Origin: an uncultured Prevotellaceae bacterium
GTDB lineage: Bacteria; Bacteroidota; Bacteroidia; Bacteroidales; Bacteroidaceae
Assembly (NCBI GenBank): GCA_946534585.1
Contig: CAMNCV010000137.1
Span: 1 to 64,000, forward strand
Reading direction: 5' to 3'
DNA length: 64,000 bases
Shown here: piece after piece, positions 406 through 51,887 of the stretch
Layout: each line of letters begins with the position of its first letter
Numbering within the stretch: position 1 is the first letter of the stretch
Program-made: the position numbers and the translations under genes
Notes under the pieces: model-generated
Told to the model about the DNA's origin: nothing
Seen by the model: only the letters and a program-made list of their open reading frames with translations
Databases searched by the model: none

Positions 406-513
406 GTAATAGCTATGCTTTTACTGTGTAATCCCTATGCTTTTACCATGTAATCCCTATGCGATTACTGGGTAATCATATAGCTTTCACGGTGTGATGG
501 CCATGAGATAGCA
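406..513. repeat. 22-nt dyad repeat array A
   Basis: Units begin at 406, 428, 450, 472 and, degenerate, 494, all exactly 22 nt apart. The clear units follow GTAA-N4-TAT or ATA-N4-TTAC-N3 (for example GTAATCCCTATGCTTTTAC). The array lies in the 387-nt gene-free stretch between the divergent AAA-ATPase-like gene and the substrate-binding lipoprotein gene. The same architecture recurs near 22.5, 28.8 and 48.7 kb. There is no spacer diversity of CRISPR type. The function is unknown. Confidence 0.85.
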
Positions 514-563: not shown

Positions 564-603
564 CAGGGAAGTTTTATATAGCAAGCGAAAAAGATATCAA
601 TTG

Positions 604-1422
604 ATGAAAAGAATAATATATGCACTGTTTGCCGTCGGTTTGCTGATGGTGGGAGCAGGGTGCACGGGTGAAGAAAGTCAGCATCGCCTCACAAAGGCTG
701 AGCGCGACTCGCTGCGCCGCATTGATTCTGCTGCGCTGAAGATTGGCGTGTTGCCAGTTGAGGCTTGTCTGCCGATCGTCGTTGCGGAGCAGTTGCGCCT
801 GTATGATACGCTCGGTGTTACGGTACACCTGCGCCGCTACCATGCTCTCTCAGAGTGTCGCATTGCAGTGGAGAAAGCACTTGTAGAGGGTGCCGTATTG
901 GATACCGTGCTTATAGGCATACTGAATAAGAATACACCCGTGGCGTATGCAGCCACTGCGGTGCCCCTTGAGTGGAAACTCCTTACGGCAAAGAAGGCGC
1001 GAGTCACACGCCTTGACCAGTTAGTTGATAAGATGATTGCCGCTGACAGTCATGGCATTACGTATGCTCTGGCTATTCAGGTGCTTGATACCCTGCGCCG
1101 TAAGAAACAGCAGGCGTTCGTCATACAGGTAGAAGATTTGCGAGTGCGTGAGCAGATGCTCGTCACTGGCAACGTGGATGCTGCATTCCTGCCGGAGCCT
1201 TTTGCCTCAAGGGCAGAGAAGAGTGGGGCAAAGGTGCTAAAACTTGCTTCGCCGTCAAAAGGCGAGAGCAAGGCGGTCTGTCACATAGCATACCGCACGG
1301 AGGCCATGAAGGATGCCTCGCGACGACATCAGCAGCAGATGTTTGAGAAGGCGGTGGGCATAGCTGCCGACTCCATACGCCGCTATGGAAAAGAGAAATA
1401 CATGAACATGATGCAATGGTAA
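604..1422 (+). CDS. ABC-type substrate-binding lipoprotein (SsuA/THI5-like)
   Basis: The 272-residue product starts with a lipoprotein signal (MKRIIYALFAVGLLMVGAGC), so it should be anchored by Cys20. The body has features of the nitrate/sulfonate/taurine or NMT1/THI5-like periplasmic-binding class: KIGVLPVEACLPIVVAEQ near the start and NVDAAFLPEPFAS in the second lobe. The listed ORF begins at a TTG at 601; the ATG three bases later is the more natural start. The next gene begins 1 nt after the stop, so the two are probably cotranslated. No permease or ATPase gene is nearby, so the ligand and transport partner are unknown. Confidence 0.75.
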   Translation: MKRIIYALFAVGLLMVGAGCTGEESQHRLTKAERDSLRRIDSAALKIGVLPVEACLPIVVAEQLRLYDTLGVTVHLRRYHALSECRIAVEKALVEGAVLDTVLIGILNKNTPVAYAATAVPLEWKLLTAKKARVTRLDQLVDKMIAADSHGITYALAIQVLDTLRRKKQQAFVIQVEDLRVREQMLVTGNVDAAFLPEPFASRAEKSGAKVLKLASPSKGESKAVCHIAYRTEAMKDASRRHQQQMFEKAVGIAADSIRRYGKEKYMNMMQW

Positions 1423-19872: not shown

Positions 19873-22431
19873 ATGGTTAAAAGGTTGTATCTGTCAATGA
19901 TTTTGATGCTCATGACGCTTGTGATAAGTGCTCAGGAGATAACGGGCGTGGTAGTAGATGCCGATACGGGTGATAGTATTTCCTTCGCCAGTGTGACGTA
20001 TCGTGGTCACCACGTTTCCGTGATAAGCGATGGTTGGGGCAAATTCTCAATCAGTCGCCATATAGGTTGGAACCTTACCATTTCGGCAGTGGGCTATAAG
20101 GCAAAAACATATGCTGTGACCGACCGCACACTGAAGCACCTGATAGTGAAGCTAAAGCCTGACACGAAGAACCTTGATGAGGTCATAGTGAAGGCTAAGA
20201 AATCGAAATACTCGCGCAAGGACAATCCAGCTGTCGAGCTGATGAAACGTGTAATTGCCGCTAAGCAGCAGACAAAACTTGAGAATAAGGACTACTTCCA
20301 GTATCGTAACTACGAGAAGATGACCATCTCGCTCAATGATATTTCAGAGAGGCAGATGACCGAAGGCGCGTATGCAAAGAAGGAATGGCTGAAAAACCAG
20401 CTTGAGGTTAACCCCATGACGGGCAAGTCCGTTTTGCCAGTGATAACCAACGAGAAGGTATTCCATCGCTACTACCGTAAGGAACCGGCTAAAGAGCGCA
20501 TCTACATAGATGCAGAGCACAGCAAGGGCGTTAACGACCTGTTGCAGACTGGCGACATCTTCACTGCTTTAGCAAAAGAAGTTTTTACCGAGGTCGATGT
20601 CTATGATGACCAGATGCGCTTGCTGCAATATCCCTTTACGTCGCCTATTGGCAAGGATGCTATAGGTTTCTATCGCTTTTATATCGTAGATACGCTTGAA
20701 GTAGATCGCGACTCCTGCATTCAGGTGTCGTTCGTTCCAAATAATCAGCAGGACTTTGGCTTCCGTGGTGATTTATGGATTCTGAAAGACTCCACGCTCC
20801 ACGTGAAGAAAGTACACCTCAGCATACCTAAGCGTTCCGACGTGAATTTCGTGAGAAATATGTCGATTGACCAGGAATACCTGCGTCTGCCGAGTGGCGA
20901 CTGGGTACTGAGCAATAATGATATGCTCGTTGAGATGTCACTCGTGGGACAGTCGGGTAATTTCCTTATTACGCGTACCAGCCGTCGTGGCGACTACTCT
21001 TTTGACCCTATCGACGACAAAATCTTCCGTGGAAAGGCTCTGGAGAAGCGCGACCCATATTCAGAGATGCGCGATGCTCAATACTGGGATATCAACCGTG
21101 AGGTGGAACTGACCCACGGCGAGGAGGGCATGGACAATTTCCTGCAAGGCATGAAGAGTACCAAGGGCTTTGGCTGGTTGCTCATAGGACTTAAGGCTGT
21201 GATGGAAAACTATGTGGAAACCACCAAAAGCGCCAATCCAAGCAAGGTTGATATAGGACCTATCAACTCTATGCTGTCGTCTAACGATATTGATGGTTTC
21301 CGCTTGCGCGTGTCGGCGCAGACTACCGCCAACTTCAATCCTCATTTCTTCCTGAAGGGTTATGTGGCACGCGGATGGCGCAGCAAGAATAACTATTACA
21401 GCGGCACGCTGACCTACTCATTCAATAAAAAAGCCTACTCGCCTGACGAGTTCCCTATGCGTAACATCTCGTTTACGTCAACTTACGATATCTGTTCGCC
21501 ATCGGATAAGTTCCTTAATGTCGATAAGGATAACGTGTTTGCAGCCATAAAGTGGACAAAGGTGATGAACCAGGCTTTCTACAAGCGTCAGACGCTCGAC
21601 TTCGTTCGTGAAGAAGACTGGGGGTTCGCTGTCAGTGGCGGATTGAAATTTGAAGAGGATGAGGCTGCAGGCCATCTCTATTTTCGCCGACTCAACGAGC
21701 CGGAGCTCGCTAACGGCGTGCATGGCAAGTATCGCTTCAGTGAGGTTTGGGTACAGCTGCTGTATTCTCCTGGTCAGACCTACGTGAATTCCAAGCAAAA
21801 GCGTACGCCTGTTAACCGCGATGCCCCAATATTCAAACTGAAACATACCATCGGTATCAAAGGCTTTATGGGCGGACAATATAACTACCACGTGACCGAA
21901 GCGAGCATCTATTACCGCCAGTGGCTCAAGTCGTGGGGTAAGCTCGATACATGGGTGAAGGGTGGACTGCAATGGAATCAGGTGCCATTCCCTCTGCTCA
22001 TTGCGCCTGCCGCCAACGTGTCATATATCTGGCAGCGTGAGACCTTCGAGCTTATCAATAATATGGAGTTCCTCAATGATCGCTATGTCTCCGTGCAGTT
22101 GGAGTGGGACCTCAACGGAAAACTCTTCAACCGCATCCCCCTGCTCAAGAAATTGCAGTGGCGCGAGCTTATCGGCTTCAATGTGTTGTATGGCGGACTG
22201 TCAGACAAGAATAATCCATTCCTTGATGAAAATGCCGGCAACGGTCGCCTGATGTTCTTCCCTTCGTGCGCCTCTATCATGGATCCTCATGAACCATATA
22301 TGGAGTTCCGCCTTGGAATACACAACATATTGAAGATGCTCAGCGTGGAGTACGTACATCGTCTTAACTACCACCAGTTGCCCACGGCAACAAAGAACGG
22401 CGTGCGCTTTGGCTTCCGCTTTACGTTCTGA
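19873..22431 (+). CDS. DUF5686 / carboxypeptidase-like regulatory domain outer-membrane protein
   Basis: An 852-residue protein with signal peptide MVKRLYLSMILMLMTLVISAQ. Residues about 22-95 form a CarboxypepD_reg-like beta-sandwich (ITGVVVDADTGDSISFASV), followed by LDEVIVKAKK and then the long DUF5686 region ending in a barrel-like C-terminus (NGVRFGFRFTF). This family is common in Bacteroidetes and resembles TonB-dependent receptor relatives without a plug. The substrate is unknown. It has its own promoter element, and array B with its hairpin follows downstream. Confidence 0.85.
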   Translation: MVKRLYLSMILMLMTLVISAQEITGVVVDADTGDSISFASVTYRGHHVSVISDGWGKFSISRHIGWNLTISAVGYKAKTYAVTDRTLKHLIVKLKPDTKNLDEVIVKAKKSKYSRKDNPAVELMKRVIAAKQQTKLENKDYFQYRNYEKMTISLNDISERQMTEGAYAKKEWLKNQLEVNPMTGKSVLPVITNEKVFHRYYRKEPAKERIYIDAEHSKGVNDLLQTGDIFTALAKEVFTEVDVYDDQMRLLQYPFTSPIGKDAIGFYRFYIVDTLEVDRDSCIQVSFVPNNQQDFGFRGDLWILKDSTLHVKKVHLSIPKRSDVNFVRNMSIDQEYLRLPSGDWVLSNNDMLVEMSLVGQSGNFLITRTSRRGDYSFDPIDDKIFRGKALEKRDPYSEMRDAQYWDINREVELTHGEEGMDNFLQGMKSTKGFGWLLIGLKAVMENYVETTKSANPSKVDIGPINSMLSSNDIDGFRLRVSAQTTANFNPHFFLKGYVARGWRSKNNYYSGTLTYSFNKKAYSPDEFPMRNISFTSTYDICSPSDKFLNVDKDNVFAAIKWTKVMNQAFYKRQTLDFVREEDWGFAVSGGLKFEEDEAAGHLYFRRLNEPELANGVHGKYRFSEVWVQLLYSPGQTYVNSKQKRTPVNRDAPIFKLKHTIGIKGFMGGQYNYHVTEASIYYRQWLKSWGKLDTWVKGGLQWNQVPFPLLIAPAANVSYIWQRETFELINNMEFLNDRYVSVQLEWDLNGKLFNRIPLLKKLQWRELIGFNVLYGGLSDKNNPFLDENAGNGRLMFFPSCASIMDPHEPYMEFRLGIHNILKMLSVEYVHRLNYHQLPTATKNGVRFGFRFTF

Positions 22432-22456: not shown

Positions 22457-22566
22457 ACAATCGCTATCTGATTACCGTGTAATCGCTATCATATTACCAT
22501 GTAATCGCTATGCTTTTACCATGTAATCTCTATCTGATTACGACATGGTTGCTATCCAGTTGAATT
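22457..22566. repeat. 22-nt dyad repeat array B
   Basis: Units at 22457, 22479, 22501 and 22523, with a degenerate fifth at 22545, are exactly 22 nt apart. The right half of units 1 and 4 (CTGATTAC) is the reverse complement of GTAATCAG, which is the left half of a unit in array D, so half-units are used in both orientations. The final degenerate unit is one arm of the adjoining hairpin. The array lies in the 461-nt gap before YigZ. Confidence 0.85.
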
Positions 22567-22592
22567 TTAGCTGGATAGCAACCATGTTTTTT
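22543..22592 (+). terminator. Long hairpin with T-tract ending array B
   Basis: ACATGGTTGCTATCCAG (22543-22559) pairs perfectly over 17 bp with CTGGATAGCAACCATGT (22571-22587) around an 11-nt loop, followed by TTTTTT including the last stem base. It is suited to terminate the DUF5686 transcript. The left arm is in 22-nt register with array B, which is unusual for a simple terminator. Confidence 0.75.
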
Positions 22593-26168: not shown

Positions 26169-26336
26169 TAAGTAGGTGTACATAATTATTTATACAATCC
26201 TTGCATCATCTGACAATGCATCTTCAGCACCTGCTAACGGTTGAGTAGGAGTTACTACACGCCCTAATATCATGTACTGAACCTACGTCATCATGCAGTT
26301 CAAACATTATAAAAAATAATTATGCACACCTGCTTA
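26169..26336. repeat. 168-bp element with terminal inverted repeats
   Basis: The left end reads TAAGTAGGTGTACATAATTA (from 26169); the right end, on the opposite strand, reads TAAGCAGGTGTGCATAATTA (from 26336). Homology extends to about 25 bp per arm, continued by weaker symmetry around TGCATCATCTGAC and TGCATGATGAC. No ORF of use lies inside and no target duplication is obvious. The layout fits a MITE-like non-autonomous element or a structured non-coding region. Confidence 0.55.
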
Positions 26337-28073: not shown

Positions 28074-28751
28074 TCAGTTTTTCAAGAGGTCTGGTCTGAG
28101 CCTTTTCGTGCGCTCCAGAGCCTGCTCCATCTCCCATTCCTTTATCTTTGCCTCGTGTCCGGAGAGCAGAATGTCAGGCACGCGCCATCCTTTGTATTCA
28201 GCAGGGCGTGTATAGATAGGAGCCGACAGCAGGTCGTCCTGAAAACAGTCACTAAGTGCACTCTGCTCATCTCCTATCACACCTGGGATTATACGCACGA
28301 TGGCATCAGCCATGACCGCTGCAGCGAGTTCGCCACCCGTTAGCACAAAGTCGCCTATGCTTATTTCCCTTGTTATGAGATGATCACGCACTCGCTGGTC
28401 AATCCCCTTGTAATGGCCACACAGTATTATTATGTTTCCTTTCAGTGAGAGGTCGTTTGCAATATGTTGGTCAAACTTCTCACCATCGGGCGAGGTATAT
28501 ATAACCTCGTCGTAGTTGCGCTCAGTCTTCAATGCACTGATGCAACGGTCGATAGGCTCACACTGCATCACCATGCCTGCGAAACCACCGTAGGGATAAT
28601 CATCAACGCGTTTCCACTTGTCGAGAGTGTAGTCGCGCAGGTTGTGCAGATGTATCTCTGCCAGACCTTTTTTCTGTGCACGTGCCAGAATCGACTCGTT
28701 GAAAAATCCCTCAAGCATCTCTGGCAATACGGTTATAATATCTATGCGCAT
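28074..28751 (-). CDS. trmD: tRNA (guanine-N1)-methyltransferase
   Basis: A 225-residue SPOUT-class enzyme that methylates G37 of tRNAs and prevents frameshifting. [51 protein letters not shown] and [21 protein letters not shown] are diagnostic, the last two forming the SAM-binding knot. Length is normal. Array C lies between its start and the glmM stop. No clear promoter was found directly upstream. Confidence 0.97.
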
Positions 28752-28815: not shown

Positions 28816-28903
28816 GTAAAAGCATACATATTACCATGTAATCGCTATGCTTTTACACAGTAATCTGTATGCTTTTACAGTGTAATCGCTATGCTTTTAC
28901 AAA
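28816..28903. repeat. 22-nt dyad repeat array C
   Basis: Four units at 28816, 28838, 28860 and 28882, exactly 22 nt apart. Three share GTAATCGCTATGCTTTTAC or a one-block variant. The first (GTAAAAGCATACATATTAC) has the ATA core, and its left half is the reverse complement of the usual right half (GCTTTTAC). The array fills most of the 168-nt gap between trmD and glmM. Confidence 0.9.
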
Positions 28904-28919
28904 GCCATTTGTTTGCATA

Positions 28920-30308
28920 TCACTGCATATCGTAAACCACCTGCATGATTTTCTTGCCGAGGGCATCTGCCTCATCCATGCTGTGCGCCTCGCTGTAAAC
29001 GCGGATTATCGGCTCGGTGTTTGACTTGCGCAGGTGTACCCACTTGTCGGGGAAATCAATCTTCACACCGTCAATGTCGTTTACCTGTGCATCCGACTGT
29101 GCACTGTACATTTCTTTTACCTTGCTTAGTATGGCATCAACGTCGGTTTCTGGCGTGAGGTCAATGCGGTTTTTGGCAATGAAATACTCAGGGAAGGTCT
29201 TGCGCAGTTCGCTGACCTTACACTCCTTCTGTGCTAAAGAGCTGAGGAATAAGGCAATGCCTACGAGTGCGTCGCGACCGTAGTGGCTCTCGGGGTAAAT
29301 CACTCCTCCGTTGCCTTCGCCGCCGATAACGGCACCCACCTCGCGCATCTTGGTCGTTACGTTTACCTCGCCCACGGCGGCTGCACTGTATTTGCCTCCA
29401 TGCTTCTCCGTCACGTCGCGCAGTGCGCGGGTGCTTGACAGATTGCTTACCGTAGCACCAGGAGTATGTGACAGCACATAGTCGGCCACGCTGACCAGCG
29501 TATATTCCTCGCCAAACATCGTGCCATCTTCACATATAAATGCCAGTCTGTCAACATCAGGGTCAACTACGATACCGAGATCATAGTTACCATTGCGCAG
29601 GGCATCCATAATGCCGCTGAGGTTTTTCTCCAAAGGTTCGGGATTATGGGCAAAATCTCCGTTTGCTTCGCCGTTGAGGAATGTGTAGGTCACACCGAGA
29701 CGGTCGAGTAGTGGAGGGAGTATTATGCCGCCTACGCTGTTGATAGAATCGACGACGACACGGAAATGTGCTTTCTTGACAGCCTCCTCATCAACCATTT
29801 TCAGTGCCATCACTGCGTCAATGTGGCGCTCGTCGAAGCTTTCTTCGGTGTAATGACCTATGTTATCTACGTCGGCATATACGAAGTCCTCTGCTTCTGC
29901 CGTGGCGAGTACCTCGGCACCATCCTGCGCAGTGAGGAATTCACCACGGTTGTTTAGCAGTTTCAGCGCGTTCCAATGGCGTGGATTGTGAGAAGCTGTG
30001 ATTATAATACCGCCGTCAGCACCTGCCATGGTGACAGCGAGCTCGGTGGTAGGAGTAGAGGCCAGTCCGATGTTTACTACGTCGAAGCCCATGCCGAGCA
30101 GTGTGCCACAGACGACATTCTTCACCATCTCGCCAGAGATGCGTGCGTCACGACCCACTACAATCTTGCCGCTGCCGTTTGGATAGGTCTTGCGTATGAA
30201 AGTGGCATATGCCGAAGTGAATTTTACTATGTCGAGCGGATTGAGGGTGTCGCCTGCAGGTCCGCCTATTGTACCGCGTATGCCGGATATTGATTTTATT
30301 AAAGACAT
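28920..30308 (-). CDS. glmM: Phosphoglucosamine mutase / alpha-D-phosphohexomutase
   Basis: A 462-residue phosphohexomutase. IITASHNPRHWNALK holds the phosphorylated active-site serine, DPDVDRLAF is the Mg-binding motif, and RKSNTEPIIRVYSEA near the end binds the substrate phosphate. The N-terminus MSLIKSISGIRGTIGG is typical of the Bacteroidetes GlmM group, which supplies glucosamine-1-phosphate for peptidoglycan and LPS. A broader phosphomannomutase/phosphoglucomutase specificity cannot be excluded from the sequence. Confidence 0.87.
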   Translation of the reverse strand: MSLIKSISGIRGTIGGPAGDTLNPLDIVKFTSAYATFIRKTYPNGSGKIVVGRDARISGEMVKNVVCGTLLGMGFDVVNIGLASTPTTELAVTMAGADGGIIITASHNPRHWNALKLLNNRGEFLTAQDGAEVLATAEAEDFVYADVDNIGHYTEESFDERHIDAVMALKMVDEEAVKKAHFRVVVDSINSVGGIILPPLLDRLGVTYTFLNGEANGDFAHNPEPLEKNLSGIMDALRNGNYDLGIVVDPDVDRLAFICEDGTMFGEEYTLVSVADYVLSHTPGATVSNLSSTRALRDVTEKHGGKYSAAAVGEVNVTTKMREVGAVIGGEGNGGVIYPESHYGRDALVGIALFLSSLAQKECKVSELRKTFPEYFIAKNRIDLTPETDVDAILSKVKEMYSAQSDAQVNDIDGVKIDFPDKWVHLRKSNTEPIIRVYSEAHSMDEADALGKKIMQVVYDMQ

Positions 30309-48664: not shown

Positions 48665-48774
48665 GTAATAAGATAGCTATTACATGGTAATCGGATAGCT
48701 TTTACATAGTAATCAGATAGCTTTTACGGTGTAATCGCATTGCGATTATGCGACAATCAGATAGCGATAACGTT
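48665..48774. repeat. 22-nt dyad repeat array D
   Basis: Units at 48665, 48687, 48709, 48731 and 48753 are exactly 22 nt apart. Here the core is mostly ATA rather than TAT (for example GTAATCAGATAGCTTTTAC), that is, the opposite orientation of the TAT core of arrays A and B. The last unit is degenerate (CAATCAGATAGCGA). It lies in the 531-nt gap before the fasciclin/SusC locus, upstream of a promoter. Confidence 0.85.
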
Positions 48775-48882: not shown

Positions 48883-48995
48883 CATAATCAAAAAGCCGTT
48901 CGAGTGCACCAATGATGTACTTGACGGCCGTTGATGCATATACTAACACTTTGACAATAAATAAAATAAAAATAAAACTAACTACTTCAATCTTT

Positions 48996-51887
48996 ATGAA
49001 AAAACTCATTTTATGGGTGTCGATGGTCAGTGTGGCTTTCGTTTCTTGTACAAAAGATTTATTAGTACCGGAGGAGGAAAAACCAGAATGGCTTGGTGGC
49101 ACAATCTATGAGGAGTTGCAAAATCCTGATCAACGAAAACTCACAGGTACGTTTAATACGTATCTTAGATTAGTTGATGATTTGGGATATGCAGAAGTCC
49201 TAGGACGTACGGGTAGTATGACTGCTTTCCCCGCTAACGATGAGGCTTTTAACCGCTTCTTTAATTCTGACAATGCTTTCGGTGTCAGTTCGTATGAACA
49301 GCTGACAACACCGCAAAAGAAGTTGTTACTTAATTCAAGTTTGCTTAAGAATGCATTGCTGACTTCGATGCTTTCAAACATTCCGCAGGGTGACAATAAT
49401 GTTAGTCGCGGACAGGCAGTAAAACATGAAACGAATGTCAGTGTTATTGACGATATTCAGTTCTTGTCAAACCGTGGAGTCATGCCTCAAGGGAATTCTT
49501 ATTGGGATGCACATGGTAAGACGGGGATCAATTGTGTATTTGATGCTACGGTACCAATGCTGTTTCACTTAACACGTGAGCAGATGCTCAACAATTATAT
49601 TACTACAGTGGGTACAGACTGCGATTTCGGAATATTGCGTGGGGAACCAGTTGGATATAATGTTGATAATGCTGACACTGCTTATGTTTTCCAGAATAAG
49701 ATACTGAACCAGGATGTAGTATGTCAGAATGGATACATACACCAGTTGACAAATGTGCTGGTTCCTCCTGGCAATTTAGGACAGGTGCTCAGGACAGAGT
49801 CCAATGCAAAATTATTCTCACGCATGCTGGATTATCATTGTGCGCCATATTATGATGCCACTACAACGAATAACTATAATTCATGGGCTCGTCAAAATGG
49901 TGCTCCGATACTTGATTCTATTTTCCAGGTTCGTTATTTCAGTACAAAATCTCAAGGTGGTGTAGGTAATACTACTGATCCTGACGGTTCAGGCGTAGCG
50001 TCAAATATGCGCCTTGATTGGGATCCAGGATGGAATCAGTACTACTCGTCATCTACTGCGGCAAACAGCCTTAATGATTTCGGCGCTATCTTTGTTCCTT
50101 CGGATGATGCCGTCATCGACTATTTTGTAAATGGCAGTGGTTCTGATTTCGTATCGTATTATGGTGTCAAGGGATTACCTAACACTCCGGAGAATCTTCC
50201 ACAGCATCTTGATTCTATTTTCGTTAACGGTAATGGTGTGATTACAAGTATTGTCAATAATCACATGAAGAGTTCCTTCGTAGCTTCTGTTCCAAGCAAG
50301 TTCCATACGCTGACAGATATCGGCTCTGGAGAGTTTATGGAAATCTCTGCAGCTAATCATTTGTTGCAGGTAGATGGACATTATGACGTTAAGATTGCAA
50401 ACAACGGTGTAATCTACAAACTCAATAAATTATTTGCCCCAGACGAGTTCCGTTCCGTTATAGGAGGAGCTTTGACACTTCCGAATTTCGATATTATGAA
50501 TTATTTCCTTTCTGATAAGAAGAAAGGAAGTGTGAACTCTGTTTTCGGTGCAGATATGTACTATTATCTCATGGCGATGAAATCTCATTATGCGTTCTTT
50601 ACAATGCATGATAATGATTATGCTAATCCTATAATTGATCCGGTATCGTTGGGATGGTCACAGCCAAGAGCATTGTCTTTCTATACATATCTTGAGCCAC
50701 AGATAAATAAAAAGACTGGTGAGATATTCCGCTATGATCGAAAGTATGCCTTGAAGGCTTATCCTTTCAACCCTAAAACGGGTGTTATCAATTATTCACG
50801 TTCAAATGATTTAGGACAGATTGCTGTAAACGGTAATACCAGCTTTGCTTCTCAGGTATGTGATTATTTGGATTATCAAACAGTTGTGCTTGAAAGCAAC
50901 AGTTTCTATGGAGAAGGTAATAATAATCACTATTATCTGACAAAGAACGGTGGCGCAATATATGTCACAGGTGCTGGTTCAGAAAGTGATTGCGTAGGCA
51001 GAGTCTATGGTGGTGCTCAGTTGGCACATCCAGATAATCTGCCTGCTTCAAAGATCAAAGAACGTTCGCTTAAGGAAAACGGTTTCTCACTTGTTCTGGA
51101 TAGGCCAATACAGACGGCTTATGGAAGTGTGTATTCTTTCCTAAATAATAATAAAGACAAGTTCTCTGAATTCCTTGAACTATGTGCCGCGGTTAGTAGC
51201 ACGACCTATTTGAATTGGGTACGTATCAAGGATACGGCTCCTTCAAAGCAGAATTCTTATCGTATATGGAATGATACGCTTGCTATACAAGGTGATGCGA
51301 ATGTACGTTTCTTTAATGGTTATAATTATACATTGTATGCACCAGACAATGAAGCGGTAGAAAAAGCATATGCAATGGGACTGCCTACGCCTGCACAACT
51401 GGAAGCTGTTATAAATGGTGATTATTCTAGTTCGGAGTTAAAGGCTGCGCGTGAATTGGCTGCTGACATGATTGAACAGATGCGTGCATTCATACGTTAT
51501 CATTTCCAAAACAATTCTGTTTTTGCAGATAATTATCTTCCTGCAACATCTTATCAGTCTATGTATTCGTCAGATTTGGGTATAGCCTCAAATATACGAG
51601 TGTCAAGTCGCAATGGAGTGCTATCTGTTACGGATGTATATCGCGCTTCTCAGGGCTTGAGTCCTCTGACAATTACGGCAGAAAACTTGAATGATGCCAC
51701 GAAGGCAACAGAAAAAATCGTAAATAAGATGACACGTGATATTCAGTATAATGTTGATGCCAAGAGCGCCACATCATTACTTAGTTCGTCATTTGCGGTT
51801 ATTCATCAGATTAGCACTCCGCTCTGTTATTCCGCAAGTGGACGCTATGACGAAATAAAGTGCCCTTCTTCAAATCGAGATGATTAA
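48996..51887 (+). CDS. Fasciclin-domain lipoprotein (large)
   Basis: The track starts at 48912, but the ATG at 48996 begins a lipoprotein signal (MKKLILWVSMVSVAFVSC), giving 963 residues. Several FAS1-like modules are visible: LVDDLGYAEVLG...MTAFPANDEAFNRFF, GAIFVPSDDAVIDYFVNG, and NGYNYTLYAPDNEAVEKAY. Between them are NGYIHQL-type strands. FAS1 domains are adhesion or glycan-contact modules. It is the first gene of a surface operon leading into SusC and is probably exposed as a lipoprotein. Confidence 0.8.
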   Translation: MKKLILWVSMVSVAFVSCTKDLLVPEEEKPEWLGGTIYEELQNPDQRKLTGTFNTYLRLVDDLGYAEVLGRTGSMTAFPANDEAFNRFFNSDNAFGVSSYEQLTTPQKKLLLNSSLLKNALLTSMLSNIPQGDNNVSRGQAVKHETNVSVIDDIQFLSNRGVMPQGNSYWDAHGKTGINCVFDATVPMLFHLTREQMLNNYITTVGTDCDFGILRGEPVGYNVDNADTAYVFQNKILNQDVVCQNGYIHQLTNVLVPPGNLGQVLRTESNAKLFSRMLDYHCAPYYDATTTNNYNSWARQNGAPILDSIFQVRYFSTKSQGGVGNTTDPDGSGVASNMRLDWDPGWNQYYSSSTAANSLNDFGAIFVPSDDAVIDYFVNGSGSDFVSYYGVKGLPNTPENLPQHLDSIFVNGNGVITSIVNNHMKSSFVASVPSKFHTLTDIGSGEFMEISAANHLLQVDGHYDVKIANNGVIYKLNKLFAPDEFRSVIGGALTLPNFDIMNYFLSDKKKGSVNSVFGADMYYYLMAMKSHYAFFTMHDNDYANPIIDPVSLGWSQPRALSFYTYLEPQINKKTGEIFRYDRKYALKAYPFNPKTGVINYSRSNDLGQIAVNGNTSFASQVCDYLDYQTVVLESNSFYGEGNNNHYYLTKNGGAIYVTGAGSESDCVGRVYGGAQLAHPDNLPASKIKERSLKENGFSLVLDRPIQTAYGSVYSFLNNNKDKFSEFLELCAAVSSTTYLNWVRIKDTAPSKQNSYRIWNDTLAIQGDANVRFFNGYNYTLYAPDNEAVEKAYAMGLPTPAQLEAVINGDYSSSELKAARELAADMIEQMRAFIRYHFQNNSVFADNYLPATSYQSMYSSDLGIASNIRVSSRNGVLSVTDVYRASQGLSPLTITAENLNDATKATEKIVNKMTRDIQYNVDAKSATSLLSSSFAVIHQISTPLCYSASGRYDEIKCPSSNRDD

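Follow-up and report, generated by a model that had tools for sequence, protein, structure and literature searches.

Dispersed 22-nt dyad arrays in Prevotella genomes share a geometry and differ by species in their words

Introduction

Positions 28816-28900 of the window, a 64,000-nt stretch of DNA from an uncultured Prevotellaceae bacterium that was analysed as a whole, hold a short intergenic run of dyad units repeated at exact 22-nt steps. This locus raises the question of what such arrays are, how they spread, and what, if anything, binds them. A sequence-only reading of the window had described four arrays in a common 22-nt register; the observation was confirmed and proved to be larger than that reading had said. 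Prevotella genomes carry dozens of short intergenic arrays each, mostly just past gene ends, in which the 22-base geometry is kept and the spelling varies by species. This constant geometry with changing spelling suggests landing sites for a putative DNA-binding protein, spread partly by small mobile elements.

Results

Arrays in the window and its genome

The arrays of the window and one associated feature are as follows.

406..512, no strand: array A, three perfect units at 406-468 and degenerate units to about 512
22457..22541, no strand: array B, one degenerate unit (22457-22475) and three perfect units
22542..22588, + strand: terminator-like hairpin directly after array B, stem GGTTGCTATCCAG/CTGGATAGCAACC
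28816..28900, no strand: array C, units at 28816-28834, 28838-28856, 28860-28878 and 28882-28900
48665..48771, no strand: array D, three perfect units at 48665-48727 and degenerate units to 48771

Array C is composed of four perfect GTAA-N4-WWW-N4-TTAC units in register at 22-nt steps, separated by the spacers CAT, ACA and AGT. It follows the stop codon of a 462-aa ORF (28920-30308, - strand) at a distance of 19 nt and precedes an ORF at 28074-28751 (- strand) by 64 nt. Array A lies 91 nt ahead of ORF 601-1422 (+), and array D 140 nt ahead of ORF 48912-51887 (+). Array B begins 25 nt past the stop codon at 22431, between that codon and the terminator-like hairpin of the same gene, the stem of which looks like array units; array and hairpin together are repeated at another locus (L159:6042, 92% over 59 bp). 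The extent given earlier for array C was accurate, whereas A, B and D run further outward with degenerate units.

The comparison with shuffled sequence that the sequence-only reading had proposed was made with dinucleotide shuffles: the four arrays of the window hold 13 perfect units, whereas the shuffles gave a mean of 0.28 and none of the 100 reached 13. The whole draft genome of the window (G000; 2.86 Mb, 180 contigs) gave 97 two-unit matches to the GTAA-N11-TTAC-N3 pattern and none to the reversed, uncomplemented pattern. Within 419 kb of G000, GTAA-N11-TTAC occurred 87 times, compared with a mean of 8.0 at other gap lengths; unit spacings of up to 110 bp were 22, 44, 66 and 88 only, and solitary perfect units were nearly absent (4). 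The unit centre was TAT or ATA in all 13 window units and in 100 of 115 G000 units (30 arrays), with AAT or ATT in another 12. The TTAC-CAT-GTAA junction had been described as frequent; CAT/ATG spacers are indeed common in the window but account for only 12 of about 85 spacers in the genome sample.

Interior words and half-sites

Among the 115 units from 30 arrays of G000, the half-sites were mostly AAGC, TCGC and TCAG, each in both orientations. Half-sites are thus swapped and recombined in both orientations within one genome, as had been proposed from the window. Across the GTAA-type genomes, the outer GTAA/TTAC is kept and the interior words change by species:

Window genome G000: AAGC/TCGC/TCAG
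G027: AACATTATATT
G035: ATCAAATTGAA
SUG57: TCGCGACGCCG
Candidatus Prevotella equi: TCGTGCCACTT
Hallella multisaccharivorax: AGGCAATGCGA
RGIG1502: TTTGGGCCTGA

The TAT/ATA core and the set of N4 blocks described earlier hold in G000 but are particular to the window species and a few relatives.

The two halves of one unit were identical in 3 of 115 units in G000, where independent drawing predicts 16.3, and in 1 of 68 in Hallella, where it predicts 23.8. Identity between adjacent half-sites is thus rarer than chance predicts, and the dyads are systematically imperfect. Part of this deficit comes from tandem duplication of an asymmetric unit, clearly in Hallella and more weakly in G000. The interior identity of units from the same array compared with units from different arrays was 0.62 versus 0.49 in G000 and 0.57 versus 0.51 in G429, and the more tandem-like arrays of Hallella gave 0.86 versus 0.66. 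In G000 and G429 the units of one array thus resemble each other only a little more than units of different arrays do, so that the vocabulary is imposed genome-wide and is not just the product of local duplication. Neighbouring units were also less complementary than random unit pairs (0.42 versus 0.49 in G000; 0.53 versus 0.66 in Hallella).

Genomic placement

Placement was analysed with simple ORF-based gene calls, so that the following figures are approximate. In 820 kb from three genomes, 55 of 57 arrays were intergenic, though approximately 0.89 of the sequence was called coding; the other two overlapped a predicted ORF by more than half their length. The arrays are nearly, not strictly, intergenic, which corrects the earlier statement that they are only so. 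Relative to the same intergenic space, convergent intervals were enriched (14 arrays, 6.4 expected) and divergent intervals depleted (7 arrays, 16.4 expected; p=0.004). Of the arrays in co-directional intervals, 23 of 29 were closer to the stop than to the start (p=0.001), and the median distance to a stop was 54 nt, compared with 263 for random placement. The arrays thus favour gene 3' ends. Among 561 neighbouring ORFs, no regulator, replication (Rep) gene or gene family of an obvious pathway recurred next to the arrays. The sole gene that recurs at a fixed distance from them is a tyrosine-recombinase-like gene of Hallella.

Distribution across genomes

Three-unit arrays of the looser GTA-N13-TAC form were present in 29 of 398 genomes of the genus; as the other 369 lack them, the GTAA type, at least, is dispensable. 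The isolate Hallella multisaccharivorax DSM 17128 has 94 two-unit matches. The search across Prevotella and other Bacteroidales that had been suggested for the pattern was carried out on one genome per species (approximately 85,000) and yielded at least 113 stretches; among the matches listed, nearly all came from Prevotella, Hallella, Xylanibacter and unclassified Prevotellaceae. Of 396 genomes sampled across the phylum, G000 itself carried three-unit GTAA arrays and the other 395 did not. Strict-pattern matches outside Bacteroidales (L031, L032, L089 and L117) were taken as sporadic, L089 being a different sort of repeat, with almost identical units in tandem. BLAST against plasmid records returned one match, a degenerate array in the isolate Prevotella sp. 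oral taxon 299 (NC_022111.1), and phage records returned none. Three IMG/VR matches have other words. Two IMG/VR viral contigs (L119 997-1103 and L120 561-667) carry GTAAACCCCCCATGTTTAC-ttt arrays at the same 22-nt pitch.

The same frame with other outer letters

The reversed-pattern control of the genus scan matched some genomes, and these matches represent a second array type. G248 and G207 contain 22-nt arrays of the form CATTYTG-N5-CRAAATG-N3 (CATT...AATG), G201 contains 22-nt arrays of CATATAA...TTATATG, and CAT/ATG matches peak in G093 with 118 per strand.

L263-L292, in G248, G207, G093 and G201: CATT...AATG / CATATAA...TTATATG array loci

Of the eight genomes searched for these other-letter arrays, seven gave 0 matches to the reversed-pattern control, and the remaining one, G196, bears GTAA arrays as well. 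Further 19+3 skeletons were found in G016, G024, G085, Hallella and G429. In random 100-kb samples of four complete GTAA-free genomes, no repeat period between 19 and 30 was commoner than 22 in three of them; the period-22 cases numbered six, three, three and none and again consisted of a 19-nt interrupted palindrome with a further 3 nt. Across all sampled sets, long ORFs contained none of the 73 period-22 arrays but often contained tandem repeats of 13-20 nt. Outside the genus, a few period-22 and period-21 repeats were seen. Consensus units gave modest dyad z-scores (approximately 1.1 in GTAA-free Prevotella, 0.2 in G000 and 1.9 in Hallella), and the case for a dyad in the non-GTAA types accordingly comes from few arrays.

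The GTAA/TTAC pattern is real in G000, but it is not the defining feature that the first description had made of it, because related genomes share the 19+3 architecture with other outer letters. Second period-22 families also occur within GTAA-bearing genomes (L175 19006-19085, L171 18786-18847 and L188 17269-17343), for example ACTCCGGCACGTGCCGGAG-cat in Hallella and CTTGTAACCACGTTACAAG-ccg in TS_PREV2_1.

Mobility of array copies

Several genomes hold 1-12 copies each of a TGACA-type element, TGACAAAATGAAAG-[four units]-...TTAAC-N4-GTTAAG...GTGTCA, in which the four units and the ends are kept across genomes and the interior adopts the words of the host genome. In G000 and Tb.RUG.131 this element is enclosed by a MITE whose inverted ends, GGCAATGATATAGCAGT..., measure 25 bp (GGCAATGATAT...); Tb.RUG.131 has several copies. 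The G000 copy (L362, 319 bp) is bounded at both ends by an exact 8-bp target duplication, ATTATGAA. Since a MITE carries some of the copies, transposition accounts for part of the dispersal. No parent transposase of the MITE ends was seen, and most G000 arrays have unique flanks around which the inverted ends were not found.

The interval between tRNA and pgm carries an array in Tb.RUG.131 and none in RGIG1502. RGIG1502 has one decaying TGACA copy that retains the older words and has a Tb.RUG.131 locus as its orthologue; this single case is consistent with turnover of words. For orthologous-site comparison of the Hallella arrays the available relatives were too distant; there were few flank matches, and those examined have no array.

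A tyrosine-recombinase-like gene, identified as such by its sequence, lies at a distance of 275 bp from an array in two Hallella species. The loci are:

L183 8047-9557: Hallella recombinase locus
L079 1198-2702: Hallella recombinase locus
L171 8088-9522: Hallella recombinase locus

These three loci have differing neighbour genes and a common end sequence, ...TTTTCGTTGATTAGTTAC / ...CGTTGATTAGTTAC, that merges into the array. They look like copies of an integrative element with arrays as its target.

Comparison with known repeat systems

BrickBuilt is a MITE of Porphyromonas gingivalis reported in P. gingivalis and P. gulae only (Klein et al. 2015, PMC4596501). It resembles the present arrays in its occurrence in Bacteroidales, its short tandem units without spacer DNA, its intergenic position, a copy number of about 20, the proximity of many copies to terminators and a predicted dyad symmetry (PMC4596501). 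In contrast, the BrickBuilt unit is 23 nt long, compared with exactly 22 here, and the element has a leader, a tail and IS5-type ends GAGACC... (PMC4596501). Its IS5-type terminal repeats GAGACCnTTGCA had 0 matches in 370 loci. BrickBuilt is thus set apart by unit length and ends, its unit sequence being shown only in a figure of PMC4596501.

REP sequences and BIMEs are likewise palindromic, intergenic, mostly in convergent or co-directional intervals, near 3' ends, present in tens to hundreds of copies and species-specific in sequence (PMC3733652, PMC2817692). The present arrays differ in their strict 22-nt pitch, in showing no hairpin selection and in lacking a GTAG/CGTC tag beside a stem-loop; their outer letters, GTAA/TTAC or CATT/AATG, lie within the palindrome. 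Ownership by a RAYT/REP system was rejected: RAYT (Y1 transposase) genes do not track with the arrays, PF01797 being absent from nine array-bearing genomes and present in many array-free ones, although several genomes are incomplete. RAYT genes in Prevotella genomes are flanked by their own, different REPs of the CCCTGAAAGGGC/CCCAGGGC type; at loci L196-L201 and L218, the flanking REPs are of the types GCTTTTGCCCTTTCAGGGCG and CCCAGGGCGNTGCCCTGGGCT.

The dRS3 repeats of neisserial intergenic mosaic elements, ATTCCC-N8-GGGAAT, are a phage integration target and share with the present units a length of approximately 20 bp, conserved inverted arms, a variable core and occurrence in intergenic arrays (PMC3898611). 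However, dRS3 does not form a head-to-tail 22-nt array, and its motif had no match in any locus searched. The 22-bp iterons of plasmid R6K are direct repeats about two helical turns apart that are bound cooperatively on one face of the DNA. Iterons form a single array by a replication gene, whereas here dozens of arrays occur per genome and no Rep gene recurs. Rfam had no model at gathering score on the window, with only sub-threshold miRNA hairpin models at array C, and no paper on these arrays was found in the open-licence PMC literature. No named family was thus found for the arrays, in line with the earlier reading, which knew of no named element like them.

Discussion

The strict two-turn pitch, the dyad units, the swapped half-sites and the genome-wide vocabulary are what the dimer sites of a lattice-forming protein would show. 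Each 19-nt interrupted palindrome would serve as an operator-like site occupied by a single dimer of this DNA-binding protein, and the 3-nt spacer would bring the pitch to 22 bp, about two helical turns, so that 3 to 8 dimers could lie on one face and may bind cooperatively. Placement at 3' ends with no single pathway would make a chromosome-level job most likely, like that of E. coli BIMEs, rather than control of a regulon; candidates are local supercoiling and the insulation of transcript ends. The specificity of the protein may drift between species under an unchanged dimer and lattice geometry, so that the words would be replaced within a constant 22-nt frame. Array copies spread partly inside MITEs. 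A two-turn, one-face protein array stays the best reading of what was first described. We put at roughly 0.42 the probability that the arrays are dimer sites for a putative lineage-specific DNA-binding protein with a BIME-like job at gene ends. Against it, no DNA-binding protein was found that tracks with the arrays, none recurs among the 561 neighbouring ORFs, and 369 of 398 genomes of the genus do without three-unit GTAA arrays.

The main rival, which we regard as a serious possibility, is that the arrays are selfish: minisatellite-bearing, MITE-like elements similar to BrickBuilt that insert behind stops and terminators, where they are least harmful, have words produced by each lineage's own amplification, and serve no host function. 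The MITE-borne subset, with its 25-bp ends, its 8-bp duplication in G000 and its several Tb.RUG.131 copies, fits a purely selfish element, as does gain or loss at the tRNA-pgm site; array B has a paralogous copy that includes the terminator, and a 3'-end bias is the expected remainder of insertion and selection. Against this, the flanks of most G000 arrays are unique and without inverted ends, each array mixes words of a genome-wide set and does not consist of recent duplicates, and the pitch is free of indels. Simple amplification also leaves unexplained why arrays of unrelated sequence in other species keep to the same 22-nt pitch. The dimer-site and selfish readings can both hold, with mobile copies of a site that is bound by a host protein.

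It is improbable that the arrays act as RNA, transcribed behind genes and forming hairpins for termination or mRNA 3'-end stability. Their position at 3' ends, that of array B between stop codon and terminator, and mean fold z-scores of -3.7 to -6.4 per genome would suit such a role, but a symmetric skeleton alone gives low fold energies, 7 arrays lie between divergent genes and no Rfam family was found. Moreover, half-identity and unit complementarity are both below chance, the opposite of hairpin selection, which is thus unsupported. Still less probable is a general role as attachment sites for integrative elements with tyrosine recombinases, comparable to dRS3 for a Neisseria phage: two Hallella species with the recombinase-like gene at 275 bp from an array, and three loci where the TTTTCGTTGATTAGTTAC end runs into the array, point that way, but they concern 3 of approximately 190 arrays and leave the other arrays, the pitch and the vocabulary unexplained.

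In bacteria that abound in the gut and rumen, the arrays represent a compact system of noncoding DNA, with a shared geometry and species-specific words that could serve as genome markers, for example in metagenome binning. If a protein binds them, Bacteroidales would have a new class of DNA organiser that acts genome-wide; if none does, the arrays would be a repeat family conserved in pitch, not in sequence. A broader and more doubtful proposal is that Prevotella, and perhaps the wider Bacteroidales, possess lineage-wide dispersed 22-bp dyad arrays with fast-evolving, lattice-forming putative binders, in which geometry is conserved, words turn over and binder and site co-evolve.

A further repeat in the window

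A 168-bp repeat at 26169-26336 of the window has 23-nt inverted ends that are 91% complementary. Its relatives occur in many copies in G327 and in several copies in G422 and G423, and it is probably a separate MITE family.
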